Virus record (IMG/VR): IMGVR_UViG_3300021962_000649
Span: 1-23,945 of that record
Source of the DNA: a virus
Strand: one strand, 5' to 3'
Length of the DNA stretch: 23,945 nt
Position 1 is the stretch's first letter, and every line of letters begins with the position of its first letter. Shown in pieces: positions 2,415 through 10,005 of the stretch. Below the pieces are notes generated by a model. The model saw only the letters and a list, made by a program, of their open reading frames with translations. It did not search any database and had not been told where the DNA came from. A program made the translations under genes and the position numbers.

Positions 2415-3512
2415 TTAGGCCTCCTTATAAACTTGGTCAAACATACAGCACAGGACTGTGTCGGGGTCATAGGTCTTGCAGTTATCCAGCGCCTCGGCCA
2501 GGACGTGGCCGTCTAGCTTGCGCCGGTCGATGAACATCTCCGCCATCTCGGGGTCCTCGGGGTAAACGGTCTCGGCCAGTAGCTCCACAAGCCATTGCTT
2601 GTTACCGGCCATCGCGTCATAGATTGCGTCACGCAAACCCTCCAGTTCCCACGCCTCGTCGTCATCGTCGAGCAGCCAGTGATTGCCGGAAAGAGAGCTG
2701 ACACTGGTTGCTTTGCCCCACGCCCCCCACGTGTCCCATTTGTTCTCTATCTCAGTCGGGTCGCGGTCGGTGGGTAGTCCGTCCCAGTCGATGTTGACGA
2801 CCCGCTCGGCCAAGGCCAGGAAGTGCACGATGTCAAGAGACTCCCGGTCGCTGTGCTCGTGGGCATAACCCACGCTGATGTTGGTGCACTCAGGAATAAC
2901 ATCGATGAACTCTGCCGTATCTGTATACACACCCGTATCGTCTGGCAGATACATGAGCCTATCATCCTGATTCAAGGAGTCCGCTAAAGCCTGGGCAAAC
3001 AAGTCAGATGCGGTACGCCCCCACCCCTGGTGCGTGATGACGCTGTCGATACCCCGCCGGTCAAACGCAATAGCCCGGTCGAACTGGGAGAGAAGCGTAG
3101 TGTCACGCGCCACATGCCTAGCACCGATACCGCCGCACTCCTCGCCTTGGGTAAATAGGTAGTATGCGGACACGCCGCTGTGAAGCAAGTGCATCAGCAT
3201 CGCACAGCCAGCGCCATCATCTGCACCAAGCGGCGCACCCTCGGCATACCAATGCGTGTTGGTCTTCCTGATCTTGTTGGGGCCAGCCTTCTTGTGGACT
3301 GTGTCAACGTGTGCAGTAAACAGCGTGCGGTTCTCCGGGGTGGTGCGGGTGTCGATGTGCAGGTTGCCTACCTCATCTCGGTGCACCTTGGCGTGTGCTG
3401 GTGCGTTCTCTTGCAGCCAGTCGGTCATGCGTCTAGTCCCCTCGCTATTGTGTGGGCGCATCATGGAGAGTGCGCGGGCTAGGGTCTTGTGCAGGATAGA
3501 GTTCTTGTTCAT
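2415..3512 (-). CDS. M20/M28-type zinc metallopeptidase (365 aa)
   Basis: Predicted di-zinc aminopeptidase/carboxypeptidase-like hydrolase of the cytoplasm. The metal and catalytic residues of the M20/M28 (peptidase T-like) fold appear in order: HVDT (H68, D70), LGADDGAG (D98/D99), GEECGG (E124/E125), AFDRRG (D151) and AHEHSDRE (H218 or H220). All expected ligands seem present, so it is probably active. The region after ~residue 250 is an acidic extension unlike the peptidase core. The ATG at 3512 (MNKNSILHK) is chosen because ACAGGAGAAACATCC precedes it; an alternative ATG at 3539 overlaps the upstream stop and would add nine residues. It lies in a phage early operon directly after the CxxC protein gene. 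The substrate is unknown. Confidence 0.85.
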   Translation of the reverse strand: MNKNSILHKTLARALSMMRPHNSEGTRRMTDWLQENAPAHAKVHRDEVGNLHIDTRTTPENRTLFTAHVDTVHKKAGPNKIRKTNTHWYAEGAPLGADDGAGCAMLMHLLHSGVSAYYLFTQGEECGGIGARHVARDTTLLSQFDRAIAFDRRGIDSVITHQGWGRTASDLFAQALADSLNQDDRLMYLPDDTGVYTDTAEFIDVIPECTNISVGYAHEHSDRESLDIVHFLALAERVVNIDWDGLPTDRDPTEIENKWDTWGAWGKATSVSSLSGNHWLLDDDDEAWELEGLRDAIYDAMAGNKQWLVELLAETVYPEDPEMAEMFIDRRKLDGHVLAEALDNCKTYDPDTVLCCMFDQVYKEA

Positions 3513-3535
3513 GGATGTTTCTCCTGTAGTGTTGG

Positions 3536-4924
3536 TCATTCATTGTCCTGAGATTCAGGTGCATGGTCGGGGTGATACCACTCGCCACCAACTTCTACAT
3601 GGTCAACGGCATCGGTATACCAGTCGCCGGACTCGGCGCACAGCCAGCAGTCCTCCTTTAGCTCATACTGCTCGGTGTCTGCGGCGTAGCATATCTCGTC
3701 TGAGTCACTGGGGTACCACGCATCGGCTGACTCGATGAAGGTAGCGTTGTCACTGTGCGTGTACTCGCCATCCTCAAGCTCGACGATGCTGTTGTCGTCA
3801 AGGTAGTCCTCGTCGTAGTACTCGCCGTCAGCCCCAATGATGTAGTCGTTGTGCACATAGTACTGATACCCACGGCGGCCATACACATAGGTGTAGTTGT
3901 CGATGCAGTTGTCGCACACCGTCGTGTCCTCGCCACGACCGACACAGTACTGATCGTCCTCGTCGTAGATAGAAGCACCGCAGTCCTCGCAGGTGCACAA
4001 GGGAGCGCCCGCCCTGCCGTCTGTGTTGTCACAGCAGTACTCGCCGTTGGCTGATATGGTCAGGTATTGGTCGTTGTAGATGTCGACGTGCCGCTCGTCG
4101 CCGTCAATGTACGGAGCGAGGAACTCGTTGGCGTTTATCTTGTAGTGCATCAGCTTGGCATCTTCTGGCCACCCGCTACGCTTCTCGATGCCCAGGTTCT
4201 TGAGGTACGCCTCGATAGCCTCGTCAACACCTGAGTGCGAACGCTGGTCAGGGCTGCGCTTGTACGAACGCACGAAGCACTTGTACCCCGAGTCGGGGTC
4301 GGTGTAGACAAGACAGCGACCGAGTATCTTGCCGTCTTGTACACGCACCGCCATAGACCAGCCAAGTGATGGGTCATACACAGCGTAGGGGTGACGCTGC
4401 TCGCCATCATCACAGCGGATGTTGAAGTGCCTAGTCATGCAAGAACTGGGGCCGTTCATCACAGCCTCGACCATGTTGGGCAGGTCGTCAACGATCTCGA
4501 TACCGCCCGAGTAGGTATGCCGAGCAACGATGTCACGCAACTCATGGTCAGGCATGGCCTGGAAGTGACGGCGCAGATACTTGCCCAGGGTAGTGATGGT
4601 CTGGCGATCTGCCTCGCCCTTGCGTTCGTTCTCCGTGTACGCTACCCGGTTGGGGTCGGTGACAGACTTGTGCGGCCACTCCAAGAGCAGCTGATGCCAG
4701 TCATCGGGGCGGTAGGTCAGGAACGAGTCATGCACAGCGGGATGCAGGTGGTGCTTGTCGTACTCACGCTTGAACCAGGGGCGTCCGGCGTAGCGTTGCT
4801 CGGTCACGATATAACCGTCTTTGTTACGGACATACTCGTAGTTGTCACCCGCCACGATGCGGGCGGCCTGCATGAACATATCGGTGAACATTTGTGCTTG
4901 TTGCACGTTGCAGTGTTTACACAT
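3536..4924 (-). CDS. Large acidic phage protein with CxxC zinc-ribbon-like pair (462 aa)
   Basis: Starts at the ATG at 4924 (MCKHCNVQQAQMF), preceded by ATAGGAGAAACTAAAA. Three parts can be seen. The N-terminal helical region (1-150) has its own CKHC. A central block (~158-220) contains SCM, then YAVYDPSLGWSMAVRV and DGKILGRCLVYTD, a pattern I recognise from uncharacterised phage proteins. The C-terminal half is extremely rich in D/E/Y and contains paired CxxC motifs (312/315 and 337/340) consistent with a zinc ribbon. After the ribbon it continues with short Tyr/Asp-rich repeats of the type 'ADGEYYDEDYL'. No enzymatic motif is evident. It immediately precedes the peptidase gene, so they are probably co-expressed. 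Function unknown; nucleic-acid mimicry or protein binding is possible from the charge. Confidence 0.8.
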   Translation of the reverse strand: MCKHCNVQQAQMFTDMFMQAARIVAGDNYEYVRNKDGYIVTEQRYAGRPWFKREYDKHHLHPAVHDSFLTYRPDDWHQLLLEWPHKSVTDPNRVAYTENERKGEADRQTITTLGKYLRRHFQAMPDHELRDIVARHTYSGGIEIVDDLPNMVEAVMNGPSSCMTRHFNIRCDDGEQRHPYAVYDPSLGWSMAVRVQDGKILGRCLVYTDPDSGYKCFVRSYKRSPDQRSHSGVDEAIEAYLKNLGIEKRSGWPEDAKLMHYKINANEFLAPYIDGDERHVDIYNDQYLTISANGEYCCDNTDGRAGAPLCTCEDCGASIYDEDDQYCVGRGEDTTVCDNCIDNYTYVYGRRGYQYYVHNDYIIGADGEYYDEDYLDDNSIVELEDGEYTHSDNATFIESADAWYPSDSDEICYAADTEQYELKEDCWLCAESGDWYTDAVDHVEVGGEWYHPDHAPESQDNE

Positions 4925-5193: not shown

Positions 5194-5390
5194 TTGTGTA
5201 ACTCCGCGAAGTTGTCCCTGACCCAAGTCACCAGCAGGTGAGCATCGAGCGCGGCATCTTTGACCGCTTCAAAATACTCGGGCTGATGGTCGGCAGGGTT
5301 GTCCATGTAGTTGTTCAGGTCGTTGGCGATTGCCATCGTCAGGTCGTGCAGGTGACGCAGTGCGTCGTTGATGTTGTCGGGTCTTTTCAT
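5190..5390 (-). CDS. Hypothetical protein (66 aa)
   Basis: Starts at the ATG at 5390 (MKRPDNINDALRHLHDL) directly after the repeated ribosome binding site GGAGAAAGCAA and overlaps the previous stop as ATGA. The protein is predicted all-helical: DALRHLHDLTMAIANDLNNYM, then EYFEAVKDAALDAHLLVTWVRDNF. No known domain. Its site is one of the best matches to the proposed small RNA at 9226-9325. Confidence 0.75.
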   Translation of the reverse strand: MKRPDNINDALRHLHDLTMAIANDLNNYMDNPADHQPEYFEAVKDAALDAHLLVTWVRDNFAELHK

Positions 5391-5548
5391 TTGCTTTCTC
5401 CTTCCACTTTATTCAGCGCTTCCACAATTGTTACCGCTTCCCACTGAAACAGGCATGGCAGAGTTATTTCCTCATCACCACGCCCAACCACATAGGTAGG
5501 CCCAGCCCCCTCCTCATCGGTTCTTGCGTACCAATAACTAGCTTTCAT
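5387..5548 (-). CDS. Hypothetical protein with GESK C-terminus (53 aa)
   Basis: A 53-codon gene starting at the ATG at 5548 (MKASYWYARTDEEGAG), with AGGAG seven bases upstream. Another ATG at 5554 is only one base from that site and is less likely. It overlaps the genes on both sides as ATGA. The protein looks like a compact beta-rich domain (SYWYARTDEE, PTYVVGRGDEEITLP, LFQWEAVTIVEAL). The last codons GGA GAA AGC AAA TGA are at the same time the ribosome binding site of the next gene. Function unknown. Confidence 0.75.
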   Translation of the reverse strand: MKASYWYARTDEEGAGPTYVVGRGDEEITLPCLFQWEAVTIVEALNKVEGESK

Positions 5549-5640
5549 CTCCATACTCCTACATCTAACATCAACACAATCAGTGCTACGAGTAGCACCA
5601 CCCGAATTACTTTCTCCTCTGTTGTTAACATTGCGTTCAT
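5545..5640 (-). CDS. Single-pass small membrane protein (31 aa)
   Basis: Starts at the ATG at 5640 (MNAMLTTEEK) in an ATGA overlap with the upstream stop and ends in an ATGA overlap with the next gene. After a short charged N-terminus, residues ~11-29 (VIRVVLLVALIVLMLDVGV) form a credible transmembrane helix. The ATG at 5631 (codon 4) is an alternative start, with AAGGA at more normal spacing. Codons 7-12 contain GAGGAGAAAGTAA, close to the operon's repeated ribosome-binding motif. Function unknown. Confidence 0.6.
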   Translation of the reverse strand: MNAMLTTEEKVIRVVLLVALIVLMLDVGVWR

Positions 5641-5903
5641 CCTTTAATTGCGGCGAGCTTGGTGCGCTCTAGTGTGCGGCTCACGAGCAGCATCGACCGG
5701 TCAGGGTACAGATACAGCGCATCGGTTTGAAACCCAGAGGGTTGGCGTTGCTCGGCAAGCAAGCGCCCCGTTGGGAAGTGGTAGGCACGAGCGTTGCGTC
5801 TGTTGTTCTGCCACAGCACACCCCTGCCTATGTTGAACCCATGCTTGGCTATCGTTGTGCACAACCACTTGACGTGGTGTGCGGTGCTCTCAGATTTCTT
5901 CAT
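5637..5903 (-). CDS. Hypothetical protein (88 aa)
   Basis: The ATG at 5903 (MKKSESTAHHVKWLC) follows TAAGGAGAAAGCAA, one of the identical operon sites; in-frame ATGs further upstream lie in the neighbouring gene. The protein is basic. A helix with HHVKWLCTTIAKHG is followed by a beta-rich part (GVLWQNNRRNARAYHFPTG, then DALYLYPDRSMLLVSR). The charge pattern would suit RNA or DNA binding, but no known domain is recognised. Confidence 0.75.
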   Translation of the reverse strand: MKKSESTAHHVKWLCTTIAKHGFNIGRGVLWQNNRRNARAYHFPTGRLLAEQRQPSGFQTDALYLYPDRSMLLVSRTLERTKLAAIKG

Positions 5904-6054
5904 TTGCTTTCTCCTTATATGCTTGCTTGTACCCAGCACGCCATGCGGCGCACCACACCTCGAACATACGCCCTCGGAAGGGGAAGTCCGACACCTTGTA
6001 CTCATCGAACGTGTCCTTACACCATGCGCGGTATGCGCGTTTTATCTCAGTCAT
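5890..6054 (-). CDS. Hypothetical aromatic-rich small protein (54 aa)
   Basis: A 54-codon frame starting at the ATG at 6054 (MTEIKRAYRAWCKDTF), coupled by ATGA to the preceding stop. It ends at 5890, overlapping the next gene by 14 bases, so the repeated ribosome binding site is inside its coding sequence (read here as KEKAN). The composition (FRGRMFEVWCAAWRAGY) resembles the short 'F-x-x-W-x-A-A-W-x-A-G' proteins common in phage early operons. Function unknown. Confidence 0.65.
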   Translation of the reverse strand: MTEIKRAYRAWCKDTFDEYKVSDFPFRGRMFEVWCAAWRAGYKQAYKEKANEEI

Positions 6055-6314
6055 TTCTTCTTCCCTTCAAAAAAGCCAAGCCATTGCGTGCCATCCACCT
6101 GGGGTTGGTAGAAGTTGATCTCGTATTCAGCATCGTAGGGGAGTGGGACTAAGAACAGGTTATACCCGTGCCCCTCTGCCTCCATCAGTTTGATTAACTC
6201 GGGTAGTGTGCGTGTGTCCGTTGTCTGCGCCCAGGTGAACACAGATGCGGCGAAGAAGTGTGTGTTCGCCTGGATGTGTTGCTTGGCGTTGTAGCCTGTC
6301 ATTTGTGGTTTCAT
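6051..6314 (-). CDS. Hypothetical protein (87 aa)
   Basis: Starts at the ATG at 6314 (MKPQMTGYNAKQHIQ) after AAAGGAGAAAGTAA, a one-base variant of the repeated site. It overlaps its neighbours as ATGA at both ends. It is a mixed alpha/beta sequence (ASVFTWAQTTDTRTLPELIK, then YNLFLVPLPYDAEYEINFY) ending in a lysine tail. No family can be named and no active-site pattern is visible. Confidence 0.75.
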   Translation of the reverse strand: MKPQMTGYNAKQHIQANTHFFAASVFTWAQTTDTRTLPELIKLMEAEGHGYNLFLVPLPYDAEYEINFYQPQVDGTQWLGFFEGKKK

Positions 6315-6490
6315 TTACTTTCTCCTTTGGTTTGCTCACACAGTTCATCGAGCGTGAAGTACACGTTCTCGATCTTGCCCTTCACATCGTTGCGTTTGCT
6401 CAAGCTGTCGAGGTTGTCCAACGCATAGCGCAACTGCGCCCTCATGTGATCCAACTCGATGTGCCACTCGTGCTCTTGTCCTTCAGTCAT
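6311..6490 (-). CDS. Helical small protein with GESK C-terminus (59 aa)
   Basis: A 59-codon gene from the ATG at 6490 (MTEGQEHEWHIELDH), preceded by AGAAGGAGAAAGCAA and coupled by ATGA at both ends. It is predicted to be two antiparallel helices (HIELDHMRAQLRYALDNLDSL and GKIENVYFTLDELCEQ). The C-terminal GESK is encoded by the next gene's ribosome binding site. Function unknown. Confidence 0.75.
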   Translation of the reverse strand: MTEGQEHEWHIELDHMRAQLRYALDNLDSLSKRNDVKGKIENVYFTLDELCEQTKGESK

Positions 6491-6822
6491 TTGCTTTCTC
6501 CTTCTAACACTTTGTTGATCGGATGGAACTCAGCGTCCCAGATAGCGAGCACGCCTTTGCTGTCGCCCTCGATGTCGAACGCCCAGTTGGTAGACTCCTC
6601 GTCCTCGTCGTCGTAGCACGCCCTCACCTCGTAGTACGTACCGAAGTCATGCGCGTGTCCCTTGATGGTCAGATACCCACGCTCCGGCTCGCCGTAGTGC
6701 TTGATGATTTGCTTGGCGAACATCTCACACTCGCGCCTGGCACGCTTGGCATAGCCCTCGCTACCTACCTGTGCACAGTCCTCGTCATGGGGCGTAGCCC
6801 CGATCTCTACATACTCTCTCAT
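6487..6822 (-). CDS. Hypothetical acidic protein (111 aa)
   Basis: Starts at the ATG at 6822 (MREYVEIGATPHDEDC) after CTGGAGAAAGCAA and ends with GESK before an ATGA overlap. The first third is a helix with RARRECEMFAKQIIKHYG. The rest is a predicted beta-sheet with acidic turns (GYLTIKGHAHDFGTYYEV, CYDDEDEESTNWAFDIEGD). No conserved enzymatic motif is visible. It appears to be a cytoplasmic early protein of unknown function. Confidence 0.8.
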   Translation of the reverse strand: MREYVEIGATPHDEDCAQVGSEGYAKRARRECEMFAKQIIKHYGEPERGYLTIKGHAHDFGTYYEVRACYDDEDEESTNWAFDIEGDSKGVLAIWDAEFHPINKVLEGESK

Positions 6823-6950
6823 TTGCTTTCTCCAGTTTCAGATGCCGCCCTGTCAAGGTAGGCTCGGCTGTGCGGGCGGCGTAGCACAGCAAAGCCAGAG
6901 AGAATTTCTCTCTCATTCAAACTCGGGTTAACTTTCACCCAACTCCTCAT
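6819..6950 (-). CDS. Possible small protein with GESK C-terminus (43 aa)
   Basis: A frame from the ATG at 6950 (MRSWVKVNPSLNEREIL), inside the 3' end of the upstream gene, with GGAGG three bases before it. It ends with the same GGA GAA AGC AAA TGA / ATGA arrangement as three neighbours, which is the best evidence that this frame is translated. Its start region contains the repeat shared with 8350-8370 and the AGAGAGAA palindrome. An alternative frame from the ATG at 6916 has a hydrophobic start but does not end at the overlap. Moderate confidence only. Confidence 0.45.
   Translation of the reverse strand: MRSWVKVNPSLNEREILSGFAVLRRPHSRAYLDRAASETGESK
6897..6913. repeat. Perfect inverted repeat AGAGAGAA-T-TTCTCTCT
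   Basis: Eight-base perfect arms with a single central base, lying 6 bp from the GGGTTA/TCACCC element at 6920-6940. It is the second copy of the palindrome at 5055-5074. Confidence 0.5.
6920..6940. repeat. 21-bp repeat, present inverted at 8350-8370 (dispersed family, copy 2)
   Basis: This 21-bp stretch, with core GGGTTA-ACTT-TCACCC and left flank AACTC, is exactly the reverse complement of 8350-8370. It covers the stop codon of the 269-aa gene. The two copies flank that gene, the 7738-8086 control region and the 74-aa gene. Confidence 0.65.
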
Positions 6951-9116: not shown

Positions 9117-9130
9117 GTCTAATGTTAGAC
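9117..9130. promoter_or_regulatory. Candidate operator, perfect dyad GTCTAA-TG-TTAGAC
   Basis: A perfect 6+2+6 palindrome in the divergent region. A related site (11/14) overlaps the -35 box of the leftward promoter at 2355-2383, so a common repressor or activator may bind both. Confidence 0.5.
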
Positions 9131-9225
9131 TGCACCTGCTCGGGCTGAAACGGGTTAGCGCCGTGGCCACTTTTACGAGTGTTGTTCAAACCAACGCTGC
9201 TTCATGCGAGCAGCCCGGGCACCAA

Positions 9226-9257
9226 TAAAAAAACCCCCGACATTGCTGCCGGGGGTT
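9226..9257 (-). terminator. Leftward intrinsic terminator
   Basis: On the minus strand, AACCCCCG (9257-9250) pairs with CGGGGGTT (9239-9232) around a 10-nt loop and is followed by a seven-T run (9233-9227). It can only stop leftward transcription, yet no leftward protein gene lies to its right in this window. Confidence 0.85.
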
Positions 9258-9325
9258 GGAACGGGGGGAGTCAACCCACCAAGAGGAGAAAGCAAAGGGC
9301 AACTGCTAGACTTGCACCGATGCAG
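9226..9325 (-). ncRNA. Candidate leftward small RNA with anti-ribosome-binding-site segment
   Basis: A promoter-like pair at 9332-9360 and the terminator at 9226-9257 would bound an RNA of ~100 nt. Its 5' end can form a small hairpin (TGCA-TCGG-TGCA). A single-stranded-looking segment, UUUGCUUUCUCCUCUU (9296-9281), follows, then the terminator stem. That segment is complementary to the AGGAGAAAGCAAA found before the starts at 5390, 5903 and 6490, to GGAGAAAGCAAA before 6822, and with one G-U pair to the site at 6314. The RNA has not been demonstrated. The same DNA could instead be a relic ribosome binding site of a lost rightward gene. Confidence 0.4.
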
Positions 9326-9341
9326 GAACTAAGTGTACACT
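9312..9341 (+). promoter_or_regulatory. Possible rightward late promoter
   Basis: TTGCAC (9312-9317), 18-nt spacer, TACACT (9336-9341). Predicted start near 9348, about 34 nt before the small terminase ATG. The -35 match is weak (3/6). The -10 is part of the palindrome AGTGTACACT shared with the leftward pair. Confidence 0.4.
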
Positions 9342-9360
9342 GCACGCACCGGGACCGCAA
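9332..9360 (-). promoter_or_regulatory. Possible leftward promoter for the small RNA
   Basis: On the minus strand TTGCGG (9360-9355), 17-nt spacer, TACACT (9337-9332). It is back-to-back with the rightward pair through the palindrome AGTGTACACT (9332-9341). The consensus match is moderate (3/6 and 4/6); the main support is the terminator ~100 nt downstream in the same direction. Confidence 0.35.
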
Positions 9361-9381: not shown

Positions 9382-10005
9382 ATGCTCGAACACCTGCTTG
9401 ACTTCCAGCCTGAAGTTACATCCAGTACCGAGGCACCGCCCCCGGTAGAAAAAACTACGCCTATACAGGCGCTGGACGGGAAGATTAATACTTCCGACTG
9501 GCTCAAATCCATGGGGGCACCAGACACCGAGGCTGTTGTATCCGAGCTAGAAAAGACCCAGGCCCGTGAAACATTCACGGCGCTGACCACCAACGCCCCA
9601 ACCGCAGACGCACACGCCATGGTTTCCAAGCTGGAGACCCCGCAAGCTGTACGGCACCTGACAAGTATGCTCACTGCATACGACTGGGAATTTATACAGC
9701 AAGCAAAAGAGCTGCGCGGCTACGCCGTGGCCAAGATTCTGGAGGAGTGCGAGCACCCCACCGCCTCAATCCGGCTAAAAGCCCTGGCGCTCCTGGGTAA
9801 GGTGACGGAGGTTGGGCTGTTCACCGAGAAGATAGAGGTCAAGAAGACGGATATGACCGAGGACGAGGTCGACCGCAAGCTAAAAGAGAAGCTCGCCAAG
9901 TTCATGGACGTAACGGATGTGCAGCCGATCGAAGACATTGACGTGATTGATGTCGTGGCCACCCCCGCCCCACCGGAAGACGAACCGGAACAGCCCAGTG
10001 AGTGA
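9382..10005 (+). CDS. terS: Terminase small subunit (putative) (207 aa)
   Basis: Probably the DNA-recognition subunit of the packaging motor. It lies immediately upstream of the large terminase and overlaps it by 8 bp. Starts at the ATG at 9382 (MLEHLLDFQPEV) with TTTAAGGACAA before it; an in-frame stop just upstream excludes a longer form. The central part (~85-150) is helical, including HPTASIRLKALALLGKVTEV followed by GLFTEKIEVK, a pattern I associate with small terminase-like proteins of podovirus-type phages. The C-terminus (~150-207) is a charged helix and an acidic, proline-rich tail that may contact the large subunit. The assignment relies on position plus this motif. Confidence 0.75.
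   Translation: MLEHLLDFQPEVTSSTEAPPPVEKTTPIQALDGKINTSDWLKSMGAPDTEAVVSELEKTQARETFTALTTNAPTADAHAMVSKLETPQAVRHLTSMLTAYDWEFIQQAKELRGYAVAKILEECEHPTASIRLKALALLGKVTEVGLFTEKIEVKKTDMTEDEVDRKLKEKLAKFMDVTDVQPIEDIDVIDVVATPAPPEDEPEQPSE

Follow-up and report, generated by a model that had tools for sequence, protein, structure and literature searches.

The DNA analysed here, referred to as the window, is a virus record of 23,945 bases, and the segment of interest lies within a divergent intergenic region. Rightward from position 9382 run terS (assigned by position) and the genes for TerL (phrog_38), a portal-like protein (phrog_1216) and a capsid protein (PF25209), and leftward from 8838 run numerous small genes and a peptidase, the latter of the M28 family (PF04389, phrog_4191; 2415-3539, minus strand). 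Pfam and PHROG scans of the predicted target proteins found no function, and the label 'early' for their genes therefore rests on gene order. An operator-like palindrome, TGTCTAA(N)nTTAGACA, lies at 9117-9133, between the terminator described below and the first leftward gene; it is also found at the matching region of many relatives (for example L017, L030 and L041) and probably either binds a repressor or belongs to the promoter of the leftward operon.

The first-pass annotation had described, on the minus strand, a promoter-like pair (TTGCGG-N17-TACACT) upstream of a textbook terminator, enclosing an RNA with a segment complementary to a ribosome-binding site repeated before several leftward genes. 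All of these elements are present (Table 1). The two promoter hexamers are separated by 17 nt, the terminator was recovered independently as a stem followed by seven U residues at 9233-9227, and the segment reads UUUGCUUUCUCCUCUU. The repeated site GGAGAAAGCAAA stands before all four starts that had been named, AGGAGAAAGTAAATG is found with its single G-U pair at 6314, and the related motif placed in the first codons of a 31-aa gene was located as GAGGAGAAAGTAA near 5618, at about codon 8 of a small ORF. A generic promoter scan left the leftward promoter unscored (0 found), the element matching fewer than 9 of 12 consensus positions; its support comes from conservation among relatives, described below. 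A covariance model of the RNA, R1, matches 9319-9227 on the minus strand with 50.1 bits (E 8e-9; the window was outside the seed set), and the predicted RNA has a fold z of -2.6, with a second hairpin that is weak in the window phage and strong in most relatives.

Table 1. Coordinates in the window of the predicted small RNA, its signals, its candidate target sites and the adjacent terS gene.
Feature	Coordinates	Strand	Basis or remark
Target site AGGAGAAAGCAAA, 66-aa gene	5390..5402	-	13-nt complementarity
Target site AGGAGAAAGCAAA, 88-aa gene	5903..5915	-	13-nt complementarity
Target site AGGAGAAAGTAAA, 87-aa gene	6314..6326	-	one G-U pair
Target site AGGAGAAAGCAAA, 59-aa gene	6490..6502	-	13-nt complementarity
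Target site GGAGAAAGCAAA, 111-aa gene	6822..6833	-	12-nt complementarity
Predicted small RNA, ~99 nt	9227..9325	-	start set ~7 nt past the -10
Hairpin 3, intrinsic terminator stem	9232..9257	-	two-sided changes in 7 of 9 pairs
Hairpin 2	9263..9280	-	two-sided changes in 6 of 6 pairs
Seed UUUGCUUUCUCCUCUU, complementary to ribosome-binding sites, UCUCC unpaired	9281..9296	-	
Hairpin 1, 3' arm carrying the seed half UUUGC	9292..9323	-	MFE fold; two-sided changes in 9 of 12 pairs
Leftward -10 TACACT	9332..9337	-	sequence; TATACT/TACACT/TAAACT in relatives
Leftward -35 TTGCGG	9355..9360	-	sequence; TTG spacing in relatives
Palindrome AGTGTACACT, -10 common to leftward and rightward promoters	9332..9341	.	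sequence
Probable rightward terS-operon promoter TTGCAC-N18-TACACT	9312..9341	+	TTG spacing in relatives
terS, terminase small subunit by position	9382..10005	+	relatives of 46-72% identity and above beside nearly every copy

More than 110 distinct homologues were collected from uncultivated phages, located 5' of terS and on the other strand from it. All share one architecture, in which a leftward promoter (TTG-N17-TA[T/C/A]ACT) is followed by hairpin 1, by the unpaired anti-Shine-Dalgarno segment UCUCC, by hairpin 2 and by a terminator hairpin with its U-tract. Relatives identified through TerS in IMG/VR, down to about 48% TerS identity, keep this layout upstream of terS, in the order terminator, GGAGAAAGCAA(A) or GGAGAAGCAA, palindromic -10, leftward -35 and terS. 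Pattern scans that made no use of terS returned 32, at least 120 and 11 stretches, and a TerS homologue adjoins every examined locus among them except L189, a truncated contig; these scans required the seed and are hence silent on its conservation, which the TerS-based set can show. The covariance model, built from ten relatives, matched 69 of 85 loci, in one place each and with the window among them, and gave no match at the tested loci of an RNA-less clade (discussed below) or in the tested cultured relatives. Nor was the RNA found in the ~13 kb around terL of the cultured relatives HTVC027P, HTVC023P, DSL-LC04, 023Pt_psg01 and Pag-Yong1, which were chosen by TerL and have TerL identities below 60%. 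The type-B pattern had zero matches in 84,980 bacterial and archaeal genomes, so that this type was seen in neither prophages nor hosts; searches of annotated phages with terS-region DNA and TerS protein likewise gave no match. Against all 4227 Rfam families the window had no match at gathering score, the best sub-threshold scores being 26.4 of 50 bits in the window (Betaproteobacteria toxic small RNA, RF02278) and 32.8 of 41 bits in L048 (suhB/mmgR). Examination of relatives had been put forward as a check that might overturn the proposal, and promoter, complementary segment and terminator were kept together in a large set. The locus has the signature of a trans-acting small RNA, with its own promoter and intrinsic terminator, both recognised as sequence signals only, around a short non-coding stretch, and comparison all but shows that it encodes a conserved phage small RNA.

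The predicted structure points the same way. Folding of thirty distinct RNAs gives hairpin 1, the linker UCUCC in unpaired form, hairpin 2 and the terminator. The stem ends of hairpin 2 come in 28 different versions, and in L034 the hairpin-2 region is fused with the terminator. The median fold z is -4.1 compared with -2.4 for the reverse complement, and is better in 28 of the 30. On the family alignment 89.9% of paired cells are standard pairs, and two-sided changes occur in 22 of 27 pairs, spread over all three helices. The covariation score is 0.475; structures displaced by one to three columns score no more than 0.092, and shuffles 0.173 +/- 0.008. The alignment was fitted to the covariance model, which favours the model, though hardly on the scale seen. 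The covariance model was used because a plain MAFFT alignment (A1) misaligned hairpin 2 and the terminator and was unusable for folding. Over 114 sequences the mean unpaired probability of UCUCC is 0.94 (above 0.7 in 112), and the family combines a conserved fold with an accessible seed. A point against the pairing model is that the UUUGC half of the seed is hidden by hairpin 1 (0.16). Four otherwise diverged phages (L025, L033, L074 and L075) carry in hairpin 1 an identical self-complementary insert, TTGGCC-TTT-GGCCAA, that resembles a small mobile hairpin.

Complementarity between the seed and the genes of the phage itself is confined to one strand. Five copies of GGAGAAAGCAAA occur in the window, four on the minus strand, each extending to the A of an ATG (5390, 5903, 6490 and 6822), and one on the plus strand at 9285-9296, antisense to the RNA; 100 dinucleotide shuffles of the window contained none. 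Across 19 genomes, with gene starts taken from a simple script and no trained gene finder, at least nine contiguous Watson-Crick pairs with the genome's own seed were found at 88 of 330 leftward starts and at none of 132 rightward starts, the latter belonging to terminase and structural genes. The bias persists among starts containing GGAG (88/278 leftward versus 0/62 rightward) and in the window alone (5/21 versus 0/20). Chance complementarity is ruled out by the shuffles and by these counts. Own seeds also outperform swapped seeds (P about 5e-5 by permutation, uncorrected for relatedness). For the five sites the predicted net energy of interaction ranges from -14.9 to -24.4 kcal/mol; the range at eleven rightward starts is -1.8 to -17.2, so that energy by itself distinguishes the two groups only in part. 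In long contigs the motif at starts is nearly restricted to one strand, with one further antisense copy in the RNA, a pattern that holds in a relative whose TerL is just 51% identical. The complement of AUG is likewise part of the segment in 75 of 122 relatives. Pairing of the RNA with leftward ribosome-binding sites of its own phage is strongly supported. A type-B-like motif, GGAGAAGCATCATG, is also found at the start of a leftward gene in L022 (2429-4222, minus strand) for a protein of ~597 aa with an amidoligase-like domain (PF12224, slightly below cut-off).

A one-base loss in the seed, which turns GCUUUCUCC into GCUUCUCC, tends to be mirrored in the ribosome-binding sites. In 25 genomes with GCUUUCUCC RNAs, 90 of 95 sites are GGAGAAAG; the 50 genomes with GCUUCUCC RNAs have mixed sites, 59 GGAGAAG and 50 GGAGAAAG. 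The association of seed type with site type has an odds ratio of 21 (Fisher, uncorrected for relatedness), and in disjoint nearest pairs by TerL identity, which correct for relatedness in part only, 14 pairs change as predicted, one goes against prediction and three are ties (P 5e-4). The link is real but loose on the type-B side, and the RNA has what is expected of a small RNA acting on distant transcripts, namely a seed complementary to targets encoded elsewhere that co-varies with them.

This coupling is not absolute, because a clade that has no RNA (L053-L069) retains similar sites: 12 of 81 leftward starts are complementary to a type-B seed, and GGAGAAGCAACC is retained at several starts. 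No antisense copy of the motif was found in the records searched, one of which is 65 kb. The leftward -10 and -35 positions of this clade read TACACC and GTGTAA, with the rightward TACATT kept; RNA, terminator and leftward promoter hexamers are, as judged from the sequences, lost together. The clade is nested among RNA-bearing relatives in the TerL tree, so the loss may be recent; the retained sites would be explained by such a recent loss or by a different role of the motif. Within the clade in the same tree fall the RNA-bearing L240 and L127, a hint that terL and the intergenic region have recombined. Conversely, the RNA is present in L052 and in the L070/L073 lineage, where no start reaches 9 nt of complementarity. 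Thus the original suggestion of a small RNA acting on several early genes through a CU-rich segment is borne out in its conserved architecture, covarying fold and co-variation of segment and site, and is qualified by the sites that persist in the RNA-less clade.

The position of the promoter bears on when the RNA would be made. The leftward TTG lies exactly 17 nt before the -10 in 103 of 107 distinct relatives, which were selected in part by the leftward -10 consensus itself. A rightward -10-like hexamer overlaps the leftward -10 in all 107, and a rightward TTG lies 18 nt before it in 82; this TTG is also the CAA of hairpin 1 and so has two possible causes of conservation. Because the leftward promoter and the probable terS promoter have a palindromic -10 in common, the RNA and the structural genes are probably made together; the common -10 is likely to make production of the RNA coincident with that of terS mRNA, and also potentially competitive with it. 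Symmetry of the promoter -10 is widespread in bacteria and gives divergent RNA, and competition between the two directions has been studied at bidirectional promoters of E. coli (PMC12825309).

Several other explanations deserve consideration. The RNA could be real but directed mainly at host mRNAs or small RNAs, its phage matches reflecting a common Shine-Dalgarno-like motif; UCUCC by itself is able to pair with many Shine-Dalgarno sequences, bacterial anti-Shine-Dalgarno small RNAs have many predicted mRNA targets (PMC10746234), and the RNA-less clade retains its sites. However, the complementarity runs 4-8 nt past the Shine-Dalgarno core, is limited to leftward genes and follows seed changes within the same genome, and we regard this explanation as unlikely. 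It is very unlikely that the leftward promoter instead drives the leftward operon, with hairpin 3 as a regulated terminator of a leader that has no action in trans. Although the leftward genes are on the same strand, the first of them beginning ~390 nt downstream, the terminator is strong, no alternative antiterminator fold was seen, the conserved TGTCTAA/TTAGACA repeats near 9119 suggest a separate downstream promoter, and the complementarity to distant starts would be left unexplained. The rival named by the first-pass annotation, that the segment is the relic of a rightward gene start whose ATG was lost, lying by chance between promoter and terminator, fails. An ATG does directly follow the plus-strand segment in those 75 of 122 relatives, but the frames behind it range from 3 to 151 codons with no protein in common, the segment is upstream of the rightward promoter, and a relic would neither track ribosome-binding sites nor be kept jointly with promoter, terminator and covarying folds in more than 110 relatives; with no conserved reading frame this reading is rejected as most improbable. 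Divergent transcription from symmetric promoters (PMC12825309) would also allow a targetless by-product of the terS promoter with a terminator that merely shields the leftward operon, which is scarcely credible since a by-product need not keep hairpins 1 and 2, an unpaired UCUCC or co-variation with targets. A signal at the DNA level, for instance a packaging site next to terS, was rejected because it accounts neither for the U-tract and the exact 17-nt spacing within the promoter nor for the unpaired UCUCC and the co-variation with targets.

We consider that the locus probably (with a probability of a little under 0.8) encodes an antisense RNA of the phage that acts in trans to prevent translation of a regulon of leftward, probably early, genes. 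Comparison among relatives shows the RNA family, its fold, promoter and terminator, the strand-specific complementarity and the seed-target co-variation, and from these we infer transcription of the RNA, repression of its targets and early-to-late timing. According to this model, polymerase on the palindromic -10 before terS could start either way, a rightward start giving the terminase and structural mRNA and a leftward start an RNA of ~100 nt ending at the terminator hairpin. The UCUCC exposed between hairpins 1 and 2 would nucleate on the Shine-Dalgarno core of a leftward mRNA, the duplex presumably then extending into UUUGC through strand exchange with hairpin 1, and would cover the mRNA up to the start codon, occluding ribosome binding. 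Since about a quarter of leftward starts have one common ribosome-binding-site sequence and rightward starts lack it, a single RNA could repress the whole leftward (probably early or middle) regulon and spare the packaging and structural genes. That repression falls at the early-late switch is a reasonable inference, somewhat favoured by the evidence. The chances are about even for the fuller proposal of an RNA-based switch, in which the symmetric promoter would fire, from one -10, the terminase and structural operon together with an antisense RNA against the early regulon; the ribosome-binding sites of that regulon would have evolved towards a common address, and the packaging and structural genes would be spared.

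In the open-access literature the functionally nearest systems are RegA/RegB of phage T4 and the alpha-proteobacterial anti-Shine-Dalgarno small RNAs, and the phage RNA is a member of neither. RegA and RegB shut off many phage early mRNAs at translation start and spare late mRNAs; RegB cuts GGAG, with the strong-site consensus GGAGRAYARAA (PMC3014915), close to the target motif GGAGAAAGCAAA. These are proteins, however, whereas here a small RNA would act by base pairing. The alpha-r14/NfeR1 and AbcR RNAs have variable-stem hairpins, an unpaired anti-Shine-Dalgarno or CU motif and many mRNA targets (PMC10746234; PMC5461406). The phage RNA likewise has hairpins, an exposed anti-Shine-Dalgarno segment and multiple predicted targets, but the bacterial RNAs are chromosomal, carry CCUCCUCCC or CUCCCA/GUUCCC and act mostly on host transport genes; in place of the three hairpins each with CCUCCUCCC of alpha-r14/NfeR1, the phage RNA has a single UCUCC(U) linker and no CCUCCUCCC. 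RF02278, which is chromosomal and of unknown function (PMC4603805), is also a small terminator-ended RNA, but its score in the window is far under the gathering threshold and the match is mostly terminator. The c4 RNA of phages P1 and P7, as outlined in part of a 2025 review (PMC12197685), is also an antisense RNA and prevents translation by pairing around a ribosome-binding site of the phage; it acts in immunity on a single mRNA, ant, whereas the RNA described here has several predicted targets in trans, 2.5-4 kb away, and its own promoter and terminator.

The phage small RNAs covered in the sections of that review cited here have single phage genes or host functions as their targets, and not one of them represses many genes of its own phage at a common ribosome-binding site (PMC12197685). 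If confirmed, the RNA would represent a widespread RNA means of turning early genes off, a job similar to one for which T4 uses proteins. It would also provide a clean natural case of co-evolution between a small RNA and its targets across dozens of genomes, and would tie promoter symmetry to a functional divergent RNA.
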